64,000 nucleotides of DNA from Acinetobacter corruptisaponis (GTDB lineage Bacteria; Pseudomonadota; Gammaproteobacteria; Pseudomonadales; Moraxellaceae), in the NCBI RefSeq assembly GCF_030053775.1, contig NZ_CP125669.1, positions 1,979,962-2,043,961 on the forward strand. Reading direction: 5' to 3'. The translations under genes were made by a program, and so were the position numbers. The notes beneath the pieces were generated by a model. It worked only from the letters and a program-made list of their open reading frames with translations, had not been told where the DNA came from and did not search any database. This document shows positions 34,553 to 51,794 of the stretch, piece after piece. Within the stretch, counting starts at the first letter, position 1, and every line of letters begins with the position of its first letter.

Positions 34553-35368
34553 GTGACTTTCCAGGTCTCAGCGTTATCGCAAAATGATTTTGTGATGATA
34601 CAGATTACTGATACCCATTTACTGGAGTATCCGCATCTGGAGTTTGTCGGGATGCATCCCGAGCAAAGCTTTCATGCAGTAATCGACTTGATGCGCCAAC
34701 AGCACCCCCATATTGACCTGATTGTGCATACAGGTGATCTGGCCCAGAATCCGACACCAGTGACCTACAATCGCTATCTGCAACATATGCAGAGTCTGGG
34801 TATTCCTTTCTTCCACACCCCAGGCAATCATGATGATGTCGCTCATTTCCCTTTCCATGAAAGCGACCAGACACAGGCAACAGTGGTTGAGCTTGGCAAA
34901 TGGTGCATCATTTTATTGAACAGTGCACAGCCACAACGTATTGATGGAAAAATCGCGGATGGTCAGTTAGAGCAGTTGACCAAACTATTGGAACAGCTAA
35001 AAGACCGCTATGTGGTCATTGCCTGTCATCACCATCCCTTTGCAATGCAGTCGGCCTGGATTGACCAGCATAAATTAAAGAATTCTTCTGACCTGCTGGA
35101 CGCCATCCAGCCCTTTTCCAATGTAAAGGCGATTGTCTGCGGTCATGTGCATCAGGATTCCATTCATAGCTGGCAGGGTGTCGATTTTTTATCAACCCCG
35201 TCCACCTGTATTCAATTCAAGCCGAAAAGTGAAAAATTCGCGCTGGATGAGGAACACCCAGGTTACCGTTATATTTGCCTTAAGGCCAATGGAGAACTGG
35301 AGACACAGGTCTATCGCCTTCCGACTTCCCAGCGGATGAATAGCTCAGAAGTTTTGGGATATGATTAG
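34553..35368 (+). CDS. cpdA: 3',5'-cyclic AMP phosphodiesterase CpdA-like metallophosphoesterase
   Basis: 271 aa. The calcineurin-like metal-binding set is complete: D20 and H22 (ITDTHL), GD at 61-62, GNHD at 91-94, then HHHPF and GHVH. Likely hydrolyses cAMP. The start is GTG with GAGGGG upstream. Its TAG stop codon coincides with the left edge of the 268-bp repeat: TA belongs to the flank and the G is the first base of the inverted repeat. The C-terminus may therefore have been altered by insertion, though length is near normal. Confidence 0.85.
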   Translation: MTFQVSALSQNDFVMIQITDTHLLEYPHLEFVGMHPEQSFHAVIDLMRQQHPHIDLIVHTGDLAQNPTPVTYNRYLQHMQSLGIPFFHTPGNHDDVAHFPFHESDQTQATVVELGKWCIILLNSAQPQRIDGKIADGQLEQLTKLLEQLKDRYVVIACHHHPFAMQSAWIDQHKLKNSSDLLDAIQPFSNVKAIVCGHVHQDSIHSWQGVDFLSTPSTCIQFKPKSEKFALDEEHPGYRYICLKANGELETQVYRLPTSQRMNSSEVLGYD

Positions 35369-35634
35369 GGTCTGTTGACATTTCACAGATGCTTGCGACA
35401 GAGGACATTTTTTAGACGATACAAGGCATGTTTTGCGAAACTTAGTGACTCTAAGTAAGCAAGACATAACGCAGTAACGGCAAAAAATGTCCCTGTCCCG
35501 TAGGGTTATGGCTAAAACTGCCTCAAACTTCGTTATGAAACTTGACAAGGGAATCGCCATTGCCTACGTTTCATGCCTTGTTTATGTCGTTTTAGCCTAT
35601 AACGCAAGGCATGGTTGAAATATCAACAGACCCT
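35367..35634. repeat. 268-bp palindromic MITE-like repeat, copy 1
   Basis: Terminal inverted repeats of 18 bp (GGGTCTGTTGACATTTCA at the left; one mismatch) enclose further nested stems: GGACATTTTTT/AAAAAATGTCC, ACTTAG/CTAAGT and GTTAT-GGCTAAAAC/GTTTTAGC-C-TATAAC. There is no ORF for a transposase. A second copy lies at 50159-50425. TA borders both ends here. Probably a non-autonomous mobile element or a repeat encoding a structured RNA. Confidence 0.85.
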
Positions 35635-35766
35635 ATAACTTTGATTACACATCACATCCACGATTTCTCACGAAATCTAGACAGGAATGACTACCATCTT
35701 GTCTAAAAACTCTATATGATGACGGCCCCTGATGGAAAAAACCATCTTCGGTTTGTATAAAAACAC

Positions 35767-45155: not shown

Positions 45156-45971
45156 ATGTTGTTTACCCGTTCCAAGCTTGTACTTGCATGTACATTAGCA
45201 TCGACATTATTGGTAAGTGCTTGCTCAAAAGAAAACTCAGCACAAAAACAAGATGCCCTGACAGCGAGTGCACCTGCAACAGGTGAAGCATCGACCTTAA
45301 ATGAACGCAATGCCCAGCAGCGTCTAGCTTCAACCCTGGAAAAGCATTTTAAAACCGCCAATATCAATGCCAAAATTTTGGCGGTGAAAAAAACCGAAGT
45401 GCCCAATTTATACTGGGTGAGTCTGGAAGGTATGGGTTCGGTCTATGCCACAGTTGATGGTAAATATATCTTTCAAGGTGATGTAATTCGCTTAGGTGAG
45501 AAGCAACTGCACAATGTCAGTGAAGCATTTCAAGCGACCGAGAATAAAAAACATTTGGCTACACTAAAAACAGAAGACCTGATTGTTTATCCAGCACAGG
45601 GCGGTAAAGCCAAGCATGTGATTTATGTGTTTACCGATTCAAGCTGCCCATACTGCCACAAACTGCATGAACATCTTGCAGAGATTACGGCCAAAGGTAT
45701 TGAAGTGCGTTATATCGCATGGCCACGCGGCGAACAGTTTATGCCAACCATGACCGCGATCTGGTGTAGTGAAGACCGTAAGGCCGCCTTTAATCAAGCC
45801 GTTCAGGGTTTACCTGTCCTCGCTGGAGAATGTAAAAATCCAGTACGTGATCAATATCAACTGGGTCTCAACATGGGCGTAAATGGCACCCCAGCAATTT
45901 ACAATGTTGAGGGTGAATATCTGGGTGGTTATATGACCCCAGAGGAAATCATCAAACGTCTGGATAAATAA
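45156..45971 (+). CDS. dsbC: Disulfide isomerase DsbC, lipoprotein form
   Basis: 271 aa. The N-terminal signal ends with a lipobox LVSAC (Cys23), so the protein is predicted to be membrane-tethered, unlike soluble E. coli DsbC. An N-terminal dimerisation domain precedes the thioredoxin fold with active site CPYC and cis-Pro loop NGTPAI. Shuffles wrong disulfides in the periplasm. Follows xerD as in E. coli and pseudomonads. Confidence 0.92.
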   Translation: MLFTRSKLVLACTLASTLLVSACSKENSAQKQDALTASAPATGEASTLNERNAQQRLASTLEKHFKTANINAKILAVKKTEVPNLYWVSLEGMGSVYATVDGKYIFQGDVIRLGEKQLHNVSEAFQATENKKHLATLKTEDLIVYPAQGGKAKHVIYVFTDSSCPYCHKLHEHLAEITAKGIEVRYIAWPRGEQFMPTMTAIWCSEDRKAAFNQAVQGLPVLAGECKNPVRDQYQLGLNMGVNGTPAIYNVEGEYLGGYMTPEEIIKRLDK

Positions 45972-45978
45972 TAAATAA

Positions 45979-46008
45979 AAAAACACCATTCATTTGAATG
46001 GTGTTTTT
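45979..46008. terminator. Bidirectional terminator between dsbC and the NRPS
   Basis: A 14-bp stem (AAAAACACCATTCA with TGAATGGTGTTTTT) with a 2-nt centre has T-runs on both strands and serves convergent dsbC and the synthetase gene. Confidence 0.85.
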
Positions 46009-46020
46009 ACATCCAGCCTG

Positions 46021-49000
46021 TTAGTAATCATTCCACGGCACCGCAGGTGAACCAATCCATGCTGATTTTGCAGGAATATTCTCCCCTTTCATCACCAGCG
46101 TCAGTGGCCCCAGCACAGCATGATGATCCACATTGGCATTGTATAAAATAATGCCACGCGCATTGACCACTACATCATTTCCGACATTCACCTGACCAAT
46201 CTTCATGATACGGTCTTCAAATAAATGCGTCTGTGGTCCAGAGAAACTATTAAATTCAGCCCGATCACCAATTTTGACGCAATCAAACTCGGTAATATCT
46301 GCGGTATCCAGATACACATCCCGACCAATCTTCACACCCAACAGACGCAGGAAGAAAGGCAACATCGGTGTGCCACGCAAGTAATTGAGGAAGTTCGGAA
46401 TGGCAACCGATTCATATAAACTGGTAATACCCTCACTGAGCCAGACAAACATGGTCCACATTGGCGCAGACTTAGGTTGATAACGTCCAATCAGCATCCA
46501 TTTGAGTAAAGCCACAATAATAAAGCAGCCAACACCATATAGTAGTCCAGCAAGAGTCAGAGCCAGCAAGCCAACCGAAACATTATAGATGTTAATCACA
46601 TCAATAATTTCCAGCACGATCATATAGCCCACCCCAATCGCCAACGCAGCAGGCAGTACAATACGCAAACCCTCAATCAAACCACGCATCAAACGACGTC
46701 CAATACCTGGCTTAAAGGTGAGATGATCTGGATAGTGTTGCGCTGCCTCCCGTGCAGGCAATAACAAGGCAGGCGAACCAAACCATGTCTGTCCTGAATA
46801 CATTTCACGATTGTCAGGTGTTTTGGACTGCACACCGATCAAGACATTATCAGGCAATACCGTTCCATCAGCAATATAGGCGCTATTGCCCACAAAGCTA
46901 CGATGACCAATTTGAGTGGATTTTAAGCTCATCCAGCCGCCCTTGATTTCTTCATCGCCCAACATCACCGCATCGGCAATAAAGCTTTCATCACCCAACG
47001 TCAGCATTTCAGGAATCACGCCTGTTGCAGTTGAGATTTCGGTATTTTTACCAACTTTTGCACCCAGCATCCGAAACCATGTCGGTGCATAAATGGTGGC
47101 AAACAAACCATGCAGGGTCTGCAAACTGGTTTCCAGAATCTGGGCGGCAAACCATTTGCGATAATACACCCCACCATGCACAGGATAGGTTCCTGTTTTC
47201 AGGTTAGGCAAGGCAACTTTACGAACAATGGATGAAATCACCGCCGTCATCACCATCATCATGGCACTGGCTGGAATCGCCAACAGGAAGTAATACAGGG
47301 CGATTTGTAAATGGTTATTCGGATCAAGGTTAAACACGTTCACATCCAACCAATCCACCAGAATAAAGCTTGGAAAGATGGGAATAAAGAAAATACAGGC
47401 AATGATCAGCGCACTTACTGCATAATAGCCATATTCCAATATTTTACGGACAAATGACAACGCAGGACGGGCTGGCATTTTTGTCAGCTCATCGACATGG
47501 CCAATTTTACGGGCAGGCGTACCATCCCAGATTTCACCTGTAGGCACAGTGGTATTGTATTCAATGGCTGTCAGGGCATTGACATGGGCTTTGGCTTCCA
47601 GAACCGTGTTTTCTTCCAACACTGCATAGGAACCAACATAACTGTCTTGTTTAAGCGTAATCGAACCCAACACCAGATGCCCATGTTCCACTTTGGCATT
47701 TTCCAGATTGACGTTTGAGCCGATGCTCACCCCATCTTCAATGGTCAATAAAGACGGCATCCGAATATGCACCGAGCTAATATTGACATCATGGCCAATT
47801 TTCGCACCCAAAGCTTTCAAATATAGATTCAGTAAAGTTGAACCTGACAACAGGTACACAGGTGAAATACTGCCGATCCGATCTGCCAGCCACCAACGGA
47901 AATAGGTCATGCCCCAAAGTGGATAACGCCCTACTTTTACTCCCAGCATCAAAAGTCGTTTTATCCCAATCGATACGGCAAAACTGGCAATGATCACGCT
48001 GACATAAACCAACAGCGAAAGCAGGATTGCATAAGGAATACTATCCCGTGCCCCACCTGTAAAATAATGATAGGTAAAGAATGGCGCCAGCCACTGTAAA
48101 ATATTGATTGAGATCAGGGTTGGAATGGTGATCAATTGAGCCAAACCACACAGCCACTTATACGTCTGGTTACGCGGATTATCCTGTCCAAGCTGTTCAT
48201 TTTGTGCTTGCTTCGATGTATCCAGCATTAAGGTTGCAATTGCCCCGACTTTTCGGGCTTGATACAGGTTTTGTATAGTCAGATGACGATAATCTTCATG
48301 CTGACGTAAATTCGAAACCAACACGGCTGCCAATAAGGAATGTCCACCGAGATCATCAAAGAAATCGGCATCCAGCTTAATCGGTATATTCGGAAATAAG
48401 CGATTCAGAATTTCAAATAACACTTCTTCCGCCACATTTTGCGGTAGATCGGATTCACTACGATCCACCATACTGATCAATGGTCGTGCTTTTAATGCTT
48501 TACGGTCAATTTTCCCAGACAATAAGCGCGGTACATCTTCAATGATTTCAAAACGATTCGGCACCATATATGGTGGTAAACGCTGACTGAGTGCAGCACG
48601 AAGCTGTTTAATTTCAATCGGCTGTTTACTGTCAATTTCTGCCGCAATAAAGGCAATCAACTGATCAATGCCATCTTCGGCACGTAAAATCACCGCAGCC
48701 GTACCAATCCCATCCAGATCACACAGCGCAGCCTCAATTTCACCCAGCTCCACACGGAAGCCCCGAATCTTGATCTGGTCATCGGCACGTCCCAGACAAT
48801 GCACCTGCCCGAACTCATCAATCCGCGCCAAATCACCTGTTCGGTATAAACTTTCCTCATCAGGGTTTTCCGCCCACGGATTTTGAATAAATTTATCCGC
48901 AGTCAGGTCAGGTCGTCCCAAATAGCCCTGTGCCACACTGGGGCCAAAAATACATAACTCGCCTGTTTCGCCCTGTGGCAATAACTGTCGTTCTTCATTG

Positions 49001-50001
49001 ATCACCAGCATGCCATAGTTTGGCAATGGCTTGCCAATGGTCACAGGCTTGCCCCGTTGCAACAGTTCCAGACTGGCCGAAACAGTGGTTTCAGTTGGAC
49101 CATAGGTATTGAACATTTGATGATGCGGCAAGGCCCAGCGCTCCACCAGTGAGTCAGGACACATTTCCCCACCCAGATTAATAATCCGTAGGTTCGGCAC
49201 ATCTTCTGGAAACAAGGCCAACAAGGTTGGCACCGCATGTAAAACGCTAATATTTTCCTGCTGCAAGGTTTTACACAAACGCTCTGGATCACTGACCAAG
49301 GATTTAGGTGCAATCCACAAGCTTGCACCCACCAGATAGGACAGCCAGATTTCCTCAAAGGACATATCAAAGGCCACCGAGAAACCCTGATAAACCTTAT
49401 CCTGTTCTTGAATTCCCAAGATGCTGTTTTCACTACGCAAAAAATGGCAAATATTCTTTTGGGTAATCACAATGCCTTTCGGTTTACCTGTAGAACCAGA
49501 GGTATAAATAATATAGGCAGGCTGATCTGGCGATGCTTTCGGTAAAGTGACCTGCTGTTGCAGTGGTCGCTGCAACTCAGTTGCTGTCCACTTGGTCTGT
49601 GGCACCACCTCAAGATGCTCATACCATTCATCGCTGGTAATCATGCCAACGGCATTGGCATCCTCCAGACAAACCGCCATACGGTCTGCGGGTGTGTCCA
49701 TATCGAAAGGCAACCATGCCGCCCCGCTGAGGCAAATCGCCAATTGTGAGGTTAAAAGCTCGATTCCCCTTGGCAGCCATAAACCAACAATATCACCTGC
49801 TTTAACCCCATCCAGGATTAAATGTTGCGCCATATTGGATGCTTGGCGATATAGCTCGGCATAACTGATCTGTTGCGTTGCCTCAATTAGGGCGACCTTA
49901 TCTGGAATACGGTGCGCAGTTTCAGTAAAAATATCAGCAAGGACTTCTTGTTTTAAAAATTCTGGCTGGTTTGTGCCTCGGACAATGGCTGTTATTTGCA
50001 T
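46021..50001 (-). CDS. Pls/PosA-type non-ribosomal peptide synthetase (A-T-[TM-LbH]x3)
   Basis: 1326 aa. Residues 20-510 are an amino-acid adenylation domain: A3 YIIYTSGSTGKPKG (163-176), A5 FNTYGPTET (297-305), A7 YRTGDL (386-391), A8 GRADDQIKIRGFRVELGE (404-421), A10 GKIDRKAL (496-503). A carrier domain follows with LGGHSLL and the phosphopantetheine Ser555. The C-terminal 700 residues are three repeats of a two-helix membrane segment (about 620-680, 855-920, 1108-1170) plus a hexapeptide beta-helix domain (about 730-835, 975-1085, 1220-1326). There is no condensation or thioesterase domain. This is the layout of epsilon-poly-lysine synthetase. Substrate and product are unknown. Confidence 0.88.
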   Translation of the reverse strand: MQITAIVRGTNQPEFLKQEVLADIFTETAHRIPDKVALIEATQQISYAELYRQASNMAQHLILDGVKAGDIVGLWLPRGIELLTSQLAICLSGAAWLPFDMDTPADRMAVCLEDANAVGMITSDEWYEHLEVVPQTKWTATELQRPLQQQVTLPKASPDQPAYIIYTSGSTGKPKGIVITQKNICHFLRSENSILGIQEQDKVYQGFSVAFDMSFEEIWLSYLVGASLWIAPKSLVSDPERLCKTLQQENISVLHAVPTLLALFPEDVPNLRIINLGGEMCPDSLVERWALPHHQMFNTYGPTETTVSASLELLQRGKPVTIGKPLPNYGMLVINEERQLLPQGETGELCIFGPSVAQGYLGRPDLTADKFIQNPWAENPDEESLYRTGDLARIDEFGQVHCLGRADDQIKIRGFRVELGEIEAALCDLDGIGTAAVILRAEDGIDQLIAFIAAEIDSKQPIEIKQLRAALSQRLPPYMVPNRFEIIEDVPRLLSGKIDRKALKARPLISMVDRSESDLPQNVAEEVLFEILNRLFPNIPIKLDADFFDDLGGHSLLAAVLVSNLRQHEDYRHLTIQNLYQARKVGAIATLMLDTSKQAQNEQLGQDNPRNQTYKWLCGLAQLITIPTLISINILQWLAPFFTYHYFTGGARDSIPYAILLSLLVYVSVIIASFAVSIGIKRLLMLGVKVGRYPLWGMTYFRWWLADRIGSISPVYLLSGSTLLNLYLKALGAKIGHDVNISSVHIRMPSLLTIEDGVSIGSNVNLENAKVEHGHLVLGSITLKQDSYVGSYAVLEENTVLEAKAHVNALTAIEYNTTVPTGEIWDGTPARKIGHVDELTKMPARPALSFVRKILEYGYYAVSALIIACIFFIPIFPSFILVDWLDVNVFNLDPNNHLQIALYYFLLAIPASAMMMVMTAVISSIVRKVALPNLKTGTYPVHGGVYYRKWFAAQILETSLQTLHGLFATIYAPTWFRMLGAKVGKNTEISTATGVIPEMLTLGDESFIADAVMLGDEEIKGGWMSLKSTQIGHRSFVGNSAYIADGTVLPDNVLIGVQSKTPDNREMYSGQTWFGSPALLLPAREAAQHYPDHLTFKPGIGRRLMRGLIEGLRIVLPAALAIGVGYMIVLEIIDVINIYNVSVGLLALTLAGLLYGVGCFIIVALLKWMLIGRYQPKSAPMWTMFVWLSEGITSLYESVAIPNFLNYLRGTPMLPFFLRLLGVKIGRDVYLDTADITEFDCVKIGDRAEFNSFSGPQTHLFEDRIMKIGQVNVGNDVVVNARGIILYNANVDHHAVLGPLTLVMKGENIPAKSAWIGSPAVPWNDY

Positions 50002-50013
50002 ATTTTTTCAGCT

Positions 50014-50039
50014 ATTCAAATGACAAAAATAATTTGAAT
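50014..50039. other. Inverted repeat at the NRPS translation start
   Basis: ATTCAAAT (50014-50021) and ATTTGAAT (50032-50039), 8 bp with a 10-nt spacer, lie 13 bp upstream of the synthetase ATG. Possible operator or leader hairpin. No strong promoter was recognised in 50040-50158. Confidence 0.4.
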
Positions 50040-50158
50040 AATAAGGTGCCAATCCTTAAAACAGCGTTAAATCGCATGTGTATTATTCTAACAATTACAG
50101 TGGTGATTCTGTACGTTCCTATAACTGACATGAATTGCTTAAGGAAAGTTTAATAATG

Positions 50159-50425
50159 AGGGCCTGTTGCCACTTTATCCATGATTGCGACAGAGGACAT
50201 TTTTTAGACGATATAAGGCATGTTTTGCGAAATTTAGCATTCTAAATGAGCAGAACATAACGCAGTAGCGGCAAAAAATGTCCCTGTCCCAAAGGGTTGT
50301 AGCTAAAAATCCCTCATACTTTGTTATGAAACTTGGCAAGGGAATACCATCCCCTGCGTTTCATGCCTCGTCTGATGAATTTTTAGCTTACAACGCAATT
50401 CATTTATAAAGTGGCAACAGGCCCT
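50159..50425. repeat. 267-bp palindromic MITE-like repeat, copy 2
   Basis: Perfect 19-bp terminal inverted repeats (GGGCCTGTTGCCACTTTAT at 50160-50178, complement at 50406-50424). The interior aligns with copy 1 throughout, with the same nested stems, but paired positions differ in a compensatory way: ACTTAG/CTAAGT becomes ATTTAG/CTAAAT, and GTTAT-GGCTAAAAC/GTTTTAGCCTATAAC becomes GTTGT-AGCTAAAAAT/ATTTTTAGCTTACAAC. It lies between the divergent NRPS and hom genes. No transposase and no clear target duplication. Confidence 0.85.
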
Positions 50426-50492
50426 AGTGTCTACGCAGTTTTTTAGCTATGATCAAGCTTCATTAAAACGATTGAATAAAATGGAGTGTGAC

Positions 50493-51794
50493 GTGAAACC
50501 AGTTCGTCTGGCGATACTCGGTCTTGGTACTGTTGGTGGTGGAGCCCTTAAATTATTACAAGAAAATGCTGCTGAAATTAAACGCCGTACTGGTCGAGAA
50601 ATTCAAATTACCCATGTGGGTACACGCCGTCCACGTCCAGACTTAAATCTTGAGGGTATTCAACAAAGTGATGACCTGATGCACATCGTACGTCAGCCTG
50701 ATGTGGATGTTGTGGTTGAGGTCATGGGGGGCATTCATCCTGCCTATGAAGTCATCATGGAAGCCATTAAACATGGCAAGCAGGTGGTTACCGCAAACAA
50801 GGCCTTGCTTGCTGAACATGGCAATGAACTGTTTAAGGCGGCAGAAGACAATGCCGTACAGATCGCCTATGAAGCGGCGGTTGCTGGCGGTATTCCAATT
50901 ATCAAGGTGATCCGTGAAGGTCTTGCAGCAAACCATATTGAATGGCTGGCAGGGATCATCAATGGTACAGGCAACTTTATCCTGACAGAAATGCGTGAAA
51001 AAGGCCGTGCCTTTGAAGATGTGTTAAAGGAAGCACAAGAGCTGGGCTATGCCGAAGCTGACCCAACCTTTGATGTTGAAGGCATTGATGCGGCCCATAA
51101 ACTCACCATTTTAGCCTCTTGTGCTTTTGGTATTCCACTACAGTTTGACAAAGTCTACACCGAAGGCATCAGCAAGATTACCGCGCAAGATGTGAAATAT
51201 GCAGAAGATCTTGGTTTCCGCATCAAGCATCTGGGTATTGCACGCCGTGCAGCCAATGGAATTGAGTTACGCGTCCATCCAACATTGATCCCAGCTGAAC
51301 AACTGATTGCCAATGTCAATGGCGTTAAGAATGCCGTTCTTGTGCAGGCTCATGCAGTCGGCCCAACCTTATATTACGGTGCAGGTGCAGGTGCAGGCCC
51401 AACCGCTTCTGCTGTGGTCGCCGACGTGATTGATATCGTACGTGATATTTCCTATACCGAAGATGGTGCTGGGACCATTCCACAATTGGCATTTGAAGCA
51501 CTCACCAATGTGCCAATCCTCAGCCGAGAGGAAATGACCACTGGCTACTACATCCGCCTAAATGCCGAAGACCAGACGGGTGTATTAGCCGATGTCACCA
51601 CCATTCTCAGCCGTGCGGGGATCAGTATTGATGCCATCATGCAGCAATCACGCTTAAAGGATTTGATTCCAATTGTGATTTTGACTGATCCAGTGCTTGA
51701 GTCCAAGATGGATGAAGCGCTTGCACAAATTCAGGCATTACCTACAATTCATGGCGAAATCATCAGAATTCGTTTAGAATCGCTCGATAGTTAA
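50493..51794 (+). CDS. hom: Homoserine dehydrogenase
   Basis: 433 aa. Reduces aspartate semialdehyde to homoserine for Thr/Met synthesis. Nucleotide-binding loop GLGTVGGGAL, catalytic region AAVAGGIPIIK and NGTGNFILTEM, and a C-terminal ACT domain (about 350-425) for feedback by threonine. The start is the GTG at 50493, with GGAGTG 6 nt upstream; this gives the family N-terminus KPVRLAILGLG. An upstream open extension begins 2 bp after the repeat and is rejected. Confidence 0.96.
   Translation: MKPVRLAILGLGTVGGGALKLLQENAAEIKRRTGREIQITHVGTRRPRPDLNLEGIQQSDDLMHIVRQPDVDVVVEVMGGIHPAYEVIMEAIKHGKQVVTANKALLAEHGNELFKAAEDNAVQIAYEAAVAGGIPIIKVIREGLAANHIEWLAGIINGTGNFILTEMREKGRAFEDVLKEAQELGYAEADPTFDVEGIDAAHKLTILASCAFGIPLQFDKVYTEGISKITAQDVKYAEDLGFRIKHLGIARRAANGIELRVHPTLIPAEQLIANVNGVKNAVLVQAHAVGPTLYYGAGAGAGPTASAVVADVIDIVRDISYTEDGAGTIPQLAFEALTNVPILSREEMTTGYYIRLNAEDQTGVLADVTTILSRAGISIDAIMQQSRLKDLIPIVILTDPVLESKMDEALAQIQALPTIHGEIIRIRLESLDS

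Follow-up and report, generated by a model that had tools for sequence, protein, structure and literature searches.

Analysis of the window, a 64,000 nucleotide stretch of the Acinetobacter corruptisaponis genome (contig NZ_CP125669.1, positions 1,979,962 to 2,043,961), revealed an open reading frame (ORF) between 46,021 bp and 50,001 bp on the reverse strand, which started with ATG, had no internal stops and encoded 1326 amino acids. The product was assigned to the Pls/PosA family of nonribosomal peptide synthetase (NRPS)-like enzymes and we have designated the gene posA. The gene and the segments of its product were located as follows.

46021–50001 (−): posA ortholog, predicted delta-poly-L-ornithine synthetase, 1326 amino acids (ORF; TIGR02353, 719 bits; 86.9% identity to A. 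baumannii protein L137)
48487–49929 (−): adenylation (A) domain, core and C-terminal subdomain, residues 25–505 (profile and PDB sequence matches)
49351–49371 (−): FDMSFEE, residues 211–217, with code residues D212, M213 and E216 (alignment; PMC10522769)
48235–48408 (−): peptidyl carrier protein (PCP) domain, residues 532–589, with phosphopantetheine Ser555 (PF00550; alignment)
46042–48141 (−): Pls/PosA terminal (polymerising) domain, residues 621–1320 (TIGR02353; AlphaFold2 model)
47950–48168 (−): predicted membrane helix pair 1, residues 612–684 (model, hydropathy)
47497–47772 (−): predicted left-handed beta-helix 1, residues ~744–835 (model)
47212–47454 (−): predicted membrane helix pair 2, residues 850–930 (model, hydropathy)
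46759–47004 (−): predicted left-handed beta-helix 2, residues ~1000–1081, with invariant D1010 and N1039 (model; alignment)
46489–46704 (−): predicted membrane helix pair 3, residues 1100–1171 (model, hydropathy)
46054–46278 (−): predicted left-handed beta-helix 3, residues ~1242–1316 (model)
46201–46239 (−): GPQTHLFEDRIMK, residues 1255–1267, proposed condensation-site motif (inferred; no variation from P1256 to R1264 across 60 rows)

Pfam placed AMP-binding at residues 25–361, AMP-binding_C at 421–497 and the carrier at 532–589, and found no condensation or thioesterase family in the protein at E ≤ 0.001. Residues 621–1320 scored 719.3 bits on the NCBIfam model TIGR02353 ('Pls/PosA family'), for which the curated cut-off is 423.1. 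Hydropathy analysis showed three hydrophobic regions (residues 616–690, 853–932 and 1104–1175), and in an AlphaFold2 model of residues 598–1326 from a 60-row alignment (pLDDT 88.3, pTM 0.88) these coincided with three predicted pairs of long helices, each followed by beta-helix strands. The three units of the terminal domain had a mutual identity of 20–27% in a rough alignment. These results agreed with the layout described in an earlier sequence-only reading of this DNA, namely A and carrier domains followed by three repeats of paired helices and beta-helix. Two features of the Pls/PosA family, a terminal domain above the cut-off and an A domain plus carrier lacking condensation and thioesterase domains, were found in the sequence; the three pairs of membrane helices (six in all) and the three beta-helix segments are predicted. 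The carrier Ser555 lay within DDLGGHSLL and was invariant in the alignment. The ratio of nonsynonymous to synonymous substitution rates (dN/dS) for posA was 0.034–0.055 in four Acinetobacter comparisons (83–88% identity), where computable, with dS saturated. Two phosphopantetheinyl-transferase-family matches were present in the host genome. A separate NRPS in this genome, a 2401 amino acid open frame with two AMP-binding domains (G000:C1, 303171 and 306324), lay near such a match at 299902.

The top PDB match of the window protein was 8g95–8g98, the A domain of PosA (794 bits by phmmer, residues 6–407). PosA (A1S_2651 / ATY43264.1; PDB 8G95–8G98) is the A. baumannii delta-poly-L-ornithine synthetase described in PMC10522769. 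The A domain of L137 was the same as the crystallised one (8g95; 412/412 residues alike), and the 86.9% identity between L137 and the window protein extended over residues 6–1323. The ten-residue code of the window A domain, DMEHNGTVSK, was the same as that of A. baumannii PosA at 10/10 positions and is the code printed for PosA in PMC10522769. The D and E that the sequence-only reading had placed at code positions 235 and 239 corresponded to D212 and E216, and the cationic substrate at which they hinted was supported by the full code, which is the ornithine code of PosA. Residue numbers in the window protein are those of the PosA paper minus 5, such that D212, M213 and E216 correspond to D217, M218 and E221. 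Among 136 aligned rows (some of them near-duplicates, and one group including the locus of the window itself), DMEHNGTVSK was present in 84, a further 22 had Thr in place of Ser308 and 30 had other codes; rows with a second code residue other than Met were at most 44% identical over the aligned stretch. In the posA tree, the window protein and L137 fell in one Acinetobacter posA clade (100/100 versus guerrae-type posA), the characterised Pls, PDAP and PDAB sequences being left out of the posA trees.

Purified PosA produced 7–12-mers in vitro by liquid chromatography–mass spectrometry, with the delta linkage established by dansylation, and its E221A and D217A variants were inactive (PMC10522769). 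The proposal that a Gram-negative product of this kind was undescribed is therefore incorrect. We are highly confident that the window gene is a PosA ortholog, a single-gene iterative NRPS-like enzyme making delta-poly-L-ornithine. The enzyme is already known, having been settled by the 2023 paper (PMC10522769), and is ordinary as an enzyme. The window protein resembled A. baumannii PosA end to end, in its code, in its domains and in having no evident partner gene, but differed in the sequence upstream of its gene.

The domain layout, and the D and E of the cationic code, would also fit an epsilon-poly-L-lysine synthetase like Streptomyces Pls, and the epsilon-poly-lysine synthase structure 7wew was matched by the window protein, although at 270 bits compared to 794 for PosA. 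However, Met213 occupies the second code position, which is Ala in lysine enzymes, and PosA preferred ornithine over lysine by >160-fold and did not make a lysine polymer (both PMC10522769). As the window protein had 87% identity to PosA and an identical code, its product is predicted to be delta-poly-L-ornithine and poly-lysine was rejected as the product; we consider it very improbable. The assignment to the Pls family in the sequence-only reading thus stood, but Streptomyces Pls as the nearest model did not, the nearest characterised enzyme being A. baumannii PosA. Pls differs from the window protein in its substrate and in the pocket Ala, makes chains of 20–35 units whereas PosA makes 7–12, and has a terminal domain with 20% identity to that of PosA (PMC10522769). 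Like the window protein, it has an A domain, a carrier, three pairs of membrane helices (six in total) and three soluble segments, and its product is also an isopeptide homopolymer. A siderophore (iron-scavenging) NRPS is harder still to credit, given that condensation and thioesterase domains were not found and that the neighbouring genes were dsbC- and hom-like. Siderophore synthesis was suggested for A1S_2651 by the authors of a colistin transcriptome paper (PMC6330354), but A1S_2651 is posA and the purified enzyme made poly-ornithine (PMC10522769). This candidate was rejected on the identity of A1S_2651, its product and the domain content, and its probability is close to nil.

The conserved motifs of the A domain and carrier support activation and thioester loading, in which the A domain would activate L-ornithine with ATP and the aminoacyl group would be loaded onto Ser555. 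The alpha-amine would be held by D212 and the delta-amine by E216, T299 and S308, with M213 limiting chain length. The terminal domain, predicted to be membrane-anchored and to consist of three beta-helix/helix-pair units in one chain, would then link the carboxylate with a delta-amine, either that of ornithine or that of the growing oligomer. In repeat 3, P-Q-T-H-L-F-E-D-R was invariant across 60 rows. Q1257, H1259 and E1307, as well as D1010 and N1039 of repeat 2, were invariant in a hand-picked set of 18 distant homologs, and the matching positions in repeats 1 and 2 do not have the histidine. Judged by this conservation, the condensation site is probably the repeat 3 motif GPQTHLFEDR. There may be a single active site in the vicinity of repeat 3, possibly where it meets repeat 2, with the aminoacyl-carrier as donor. 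LpxD takes its acyl donor from a carrier protein (acyl-ACP). A Foldseek search with the terminal-domain model matched single beta-helix arms, with LpxD among the weak fold matches; there was no whole-domain match to a solved structure among the 50 best of 509 matches (template modelling score by query ≤0.17). Single left-handed beta-helix arms of CysE, maltose O-acetyltransferase and LpxD with acyl-ACP resembled the window terminal domain, which differs in having three arms in one chain and a membrane bundle. A PDB sequence search with the terminal domain likewise returned hexapeptide/beta-helix proteins that aligned to single segments only, and a literature search on the Pls/PosA C-terminal domain recognised no newer structural paper.

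The upstream regions of posA were compared across the genus with the published PmrA box, HTTAAD-N5-HTTAAD or TTTAAG-N5-TTTAAG (PMC12654582, PMC10927774). A box was found within 260 bases upstream in 23 of 27 non-identical Acinetobacter posA regions, a set that takes in broken copies, whereas 500 shuffles of these regions gave a mean of 1.17 and a maximum of 5. Before other ORFs the box occurred in 14/333, a figure swollen by three interrupted posA copies. The box followed by exactly N10 and TAnnnT was present in 22/27 posA regions and before 3/332 control ORFs, all of which were interrupted posA (G094, G085 and G169), leaving 0/329. In the full set of 32 posA loci from 31 genomes, the box was present at 28 and the box with N10 and TAnnnT at 27. 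The two main posA clades, which are ~65–67% identical, both keep the box, at ~106–140 bases in one and 206–209 bases in the other before the base matching the window's start codon. An EptA-family gene of the window genome, followed by a response regulator, is presumably pmrC; it was also preceded by the box, N10 and TAnnnT, and this box with its flanks was exactly the published 21-base PmrA ligand.

RNA sequencing (RNA-seq) of A. baumannii (two colistin-resistant strain pairs carrying pmrB changes) identified seven over-expressed genes, including A1S_2651 together with pmrC (56 versus 15 and 559 versus 27 expression units; PMC6330354); A1S_2651 is identified as posA in PMC10522769. From the conserved promoter elements and the published RNA-seq we infer that PmrAB controls posA expression in most of the Acinetobacter lineages that carry the gene. 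This link looks new and worth specialist attention and, if true, would give poly-ornithine a testable role. Whether posA belongs to the PmrAB polymyxin-response regulon, with its polymer acting in envelope stress as a cationic product by which cationic peptides are masked or repelled, and not mainly as an antifungal secretion, is in our estimate evenly balanced; as part of the same reading, posA would spread between species with the PmrA-box promoter kept in most lineages. PmrA control in most lineages is better supported than the shielding role, which is speculation. The PmrA-box promoters also lend some indirect support to the sequence-only reading's guess that the product may be a cationic oligomer at the surface or in the periplasm. 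Two sites were located upstream of the window posA.

50038–50071 (−): proposed posA promoter, PmrA-box-like TTTAAC-N5-TTTAAG (50071–50055), N11, TATTAT (relaxed pattern)
50138–50154 (−): second PmrA-box match, ATTAAA-N5-CTTAAG, which fits the published consensus (motif scan)

The 50071–50055 box starts 70 bases before the posA ATG and was the single match to the relaxed pattern within the 64-kb window. The window's copy is a weaker version of the genus promoter, and the box that was noticed first here had been spotted by eye ahead of the counts.

Several observations weigh against PmrAB control. The 50071–50055 box departs at one base from the consensus, has N11 instead of N10 spacing and was found by a relaxed pattern after that of the genus had been established, and the 50138–50154 box is without TAnnnT at the usual spacing. 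Genome-wide, a pattern closely similar to the relaxed one (box, spacing and TAnnnT) occurred at 14 sites compared to 19 for a reversed control, which means that the motif lacks specificity by itself. Leaving pmrC and posA aside, visual inspection of the ORFs within 350 bases downstream of the other 12 sites revealed no clear theme, and at four of these sites an ORF of at least 60 amino acids was missing within that distance. The box was also missing at 4/32 posA loci, namely G021 (A. colistiniresistens type), G081 and G082 (A. rudis type) and one G094 copy, and related species do not supply independent upstream regions, such that 28/32 represents perhaps four or five lineages. Beyond the transcriptome in PMC6330354, a search that covered neither subscription journals nor preprints found no published link between PosA and PmrA in Acinetobacter, and neither pmr nor colistin occurs in the main text of the PosA paper (PMC10522769). 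Other points weigh against the PosA reading of the window gene itself. The posA knockout described in that paper had a mild phenotype, with slightly more biofilm, and polymer isolated from cells is not described in the parts of it that were consulted. PosA biochemistry comes from A. baumannii only, and the chemistry, product and substrate residues given here for the window enzyme are predicted from its identity to that protein. The window posA also has another locus and another promoter region than that of A. baumannii, and its expression may differ or be nil.

The following features flank the gene. The names dsbC, hom and thrC are those we assume for the homologs beside posA.

45156–45971 (+): dsbC-like gene, left neighbour (ORF; neighbour comparison)
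45979–46008 (no strand): hairpin, likely terminator common to the convergent dsbC and posA (sequence)
50159–50426 (+): repeat element of 268 bases whose inverted ends are 26 bases long, lying between posA and hom (repeat comparison)
50427–51794 (+): hom (homoserine dehydrogenase)-like gene, right neighbour (ORF; neighbour comparison)

No partner or export gene was recognised beside the window posA, whose neighbours were the dsbC, hom and thrC homologs. Its position between dsbC and hom differed from that of A. baumannii posA (L137), where ttcA, greB and an SgcJ/EcaC gene were found in a record labelled plasmid. The dsbC and hom genes were adjacent, with no posA between them and a gap of at most ~335 bases, in 20/20 other Acinetobacter genomes, chosen by the author from 173 with a hom match. 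Eleven of these 20 had posA elsewhere, one had a disrupted remnant and eight had none above the cut-off, one of the eight (G152) being only 64% complete. The 268-base element had about two dozen copies in the genome (76–100% identical), another of which lay at ~35367–35635 of the window, and looks like a miniature inverted-repeat transposable element. G096 and G158, where posA is missing from this site, also have the element between dsbC and hom, and it probably occupied the site before posA did.

The distribution of posA was patchy: a terminal domain above the TIGR02353 cut-off was present in 31/175 Acinetobacter genomes, 4/293 of the order sample and 24/299 of the phylum sample, the window's genome being counted in each. 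In several genomes of the genus sample, posA was identical to that in named Acinetobacter records. A looser tally at E ≤ 0.001 gave 175/175, mostly through ~30-bit matches to short frames, which are probably ordinary hexapeptide proteins. The open frame was cut short in three of the 31 posA genomes (G094, G036 and G169). G094 had two copies (L173 and L174), each split between reading frames, G169 had a single split copy (L181), and G085, outside the 31, had a disrupted remnant (L175); these copies show that posA decay occurs in the genus.

A tree built on five core genes next to posA, all from this single locus, placed the window with G098, which is without posA, beside G130, G140, G096, G024 and G095. 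In the posA tree the window fell outside the posA of its core-gene relatives, and grouping them was rejected by the approximately unbiased (AU) test (p = 0.01; the group comprised members of the core-gene tree and named relatives). A larger, quick posA tree differed from the careful one at weak inner forks, and the window lay outside its core-gene relatives' posA in both. In G081, posA was 84% identical to that of the window and dsbC 66%; the G081 posA is identical to that of A. rudis. As the site was not shared with the 20 genomes and the trees conflict, posA appears to have moved or been transferred, and the simplest reading is transfer or relocation within the genus. The same unshared site and tree conflict would suit a posA freshly acquired here that may be silent or decaying, as would the interrupted and remnant copies of G094, G036, G169 and G085. 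However, the window frame is full-length with all motifs present, its amino acid changes are strongly constrained and a PmrA-like promoter element is present; we regard a silent or decaying newcomer as unlikely.

Among homologs elsewhere, those on Rhizobium and Sphingomonas plasmid sequences (L139 and L147) had a phosphopantetheinyl transferase gene directly after them. Genes for diaminobutyrate transaminase and aspartate kinase came after a homolog on a Streptomyces plasmid (L141), which suggests poly-diaminobutyrate as the product of that homolog. The code DLED(I/L)G(T/S)VVK was found in a group of homologs (L123–L134, L138 and L139) making up 14 of the 136 rows, and a similar code is given as a unique signature in PMC10522769.

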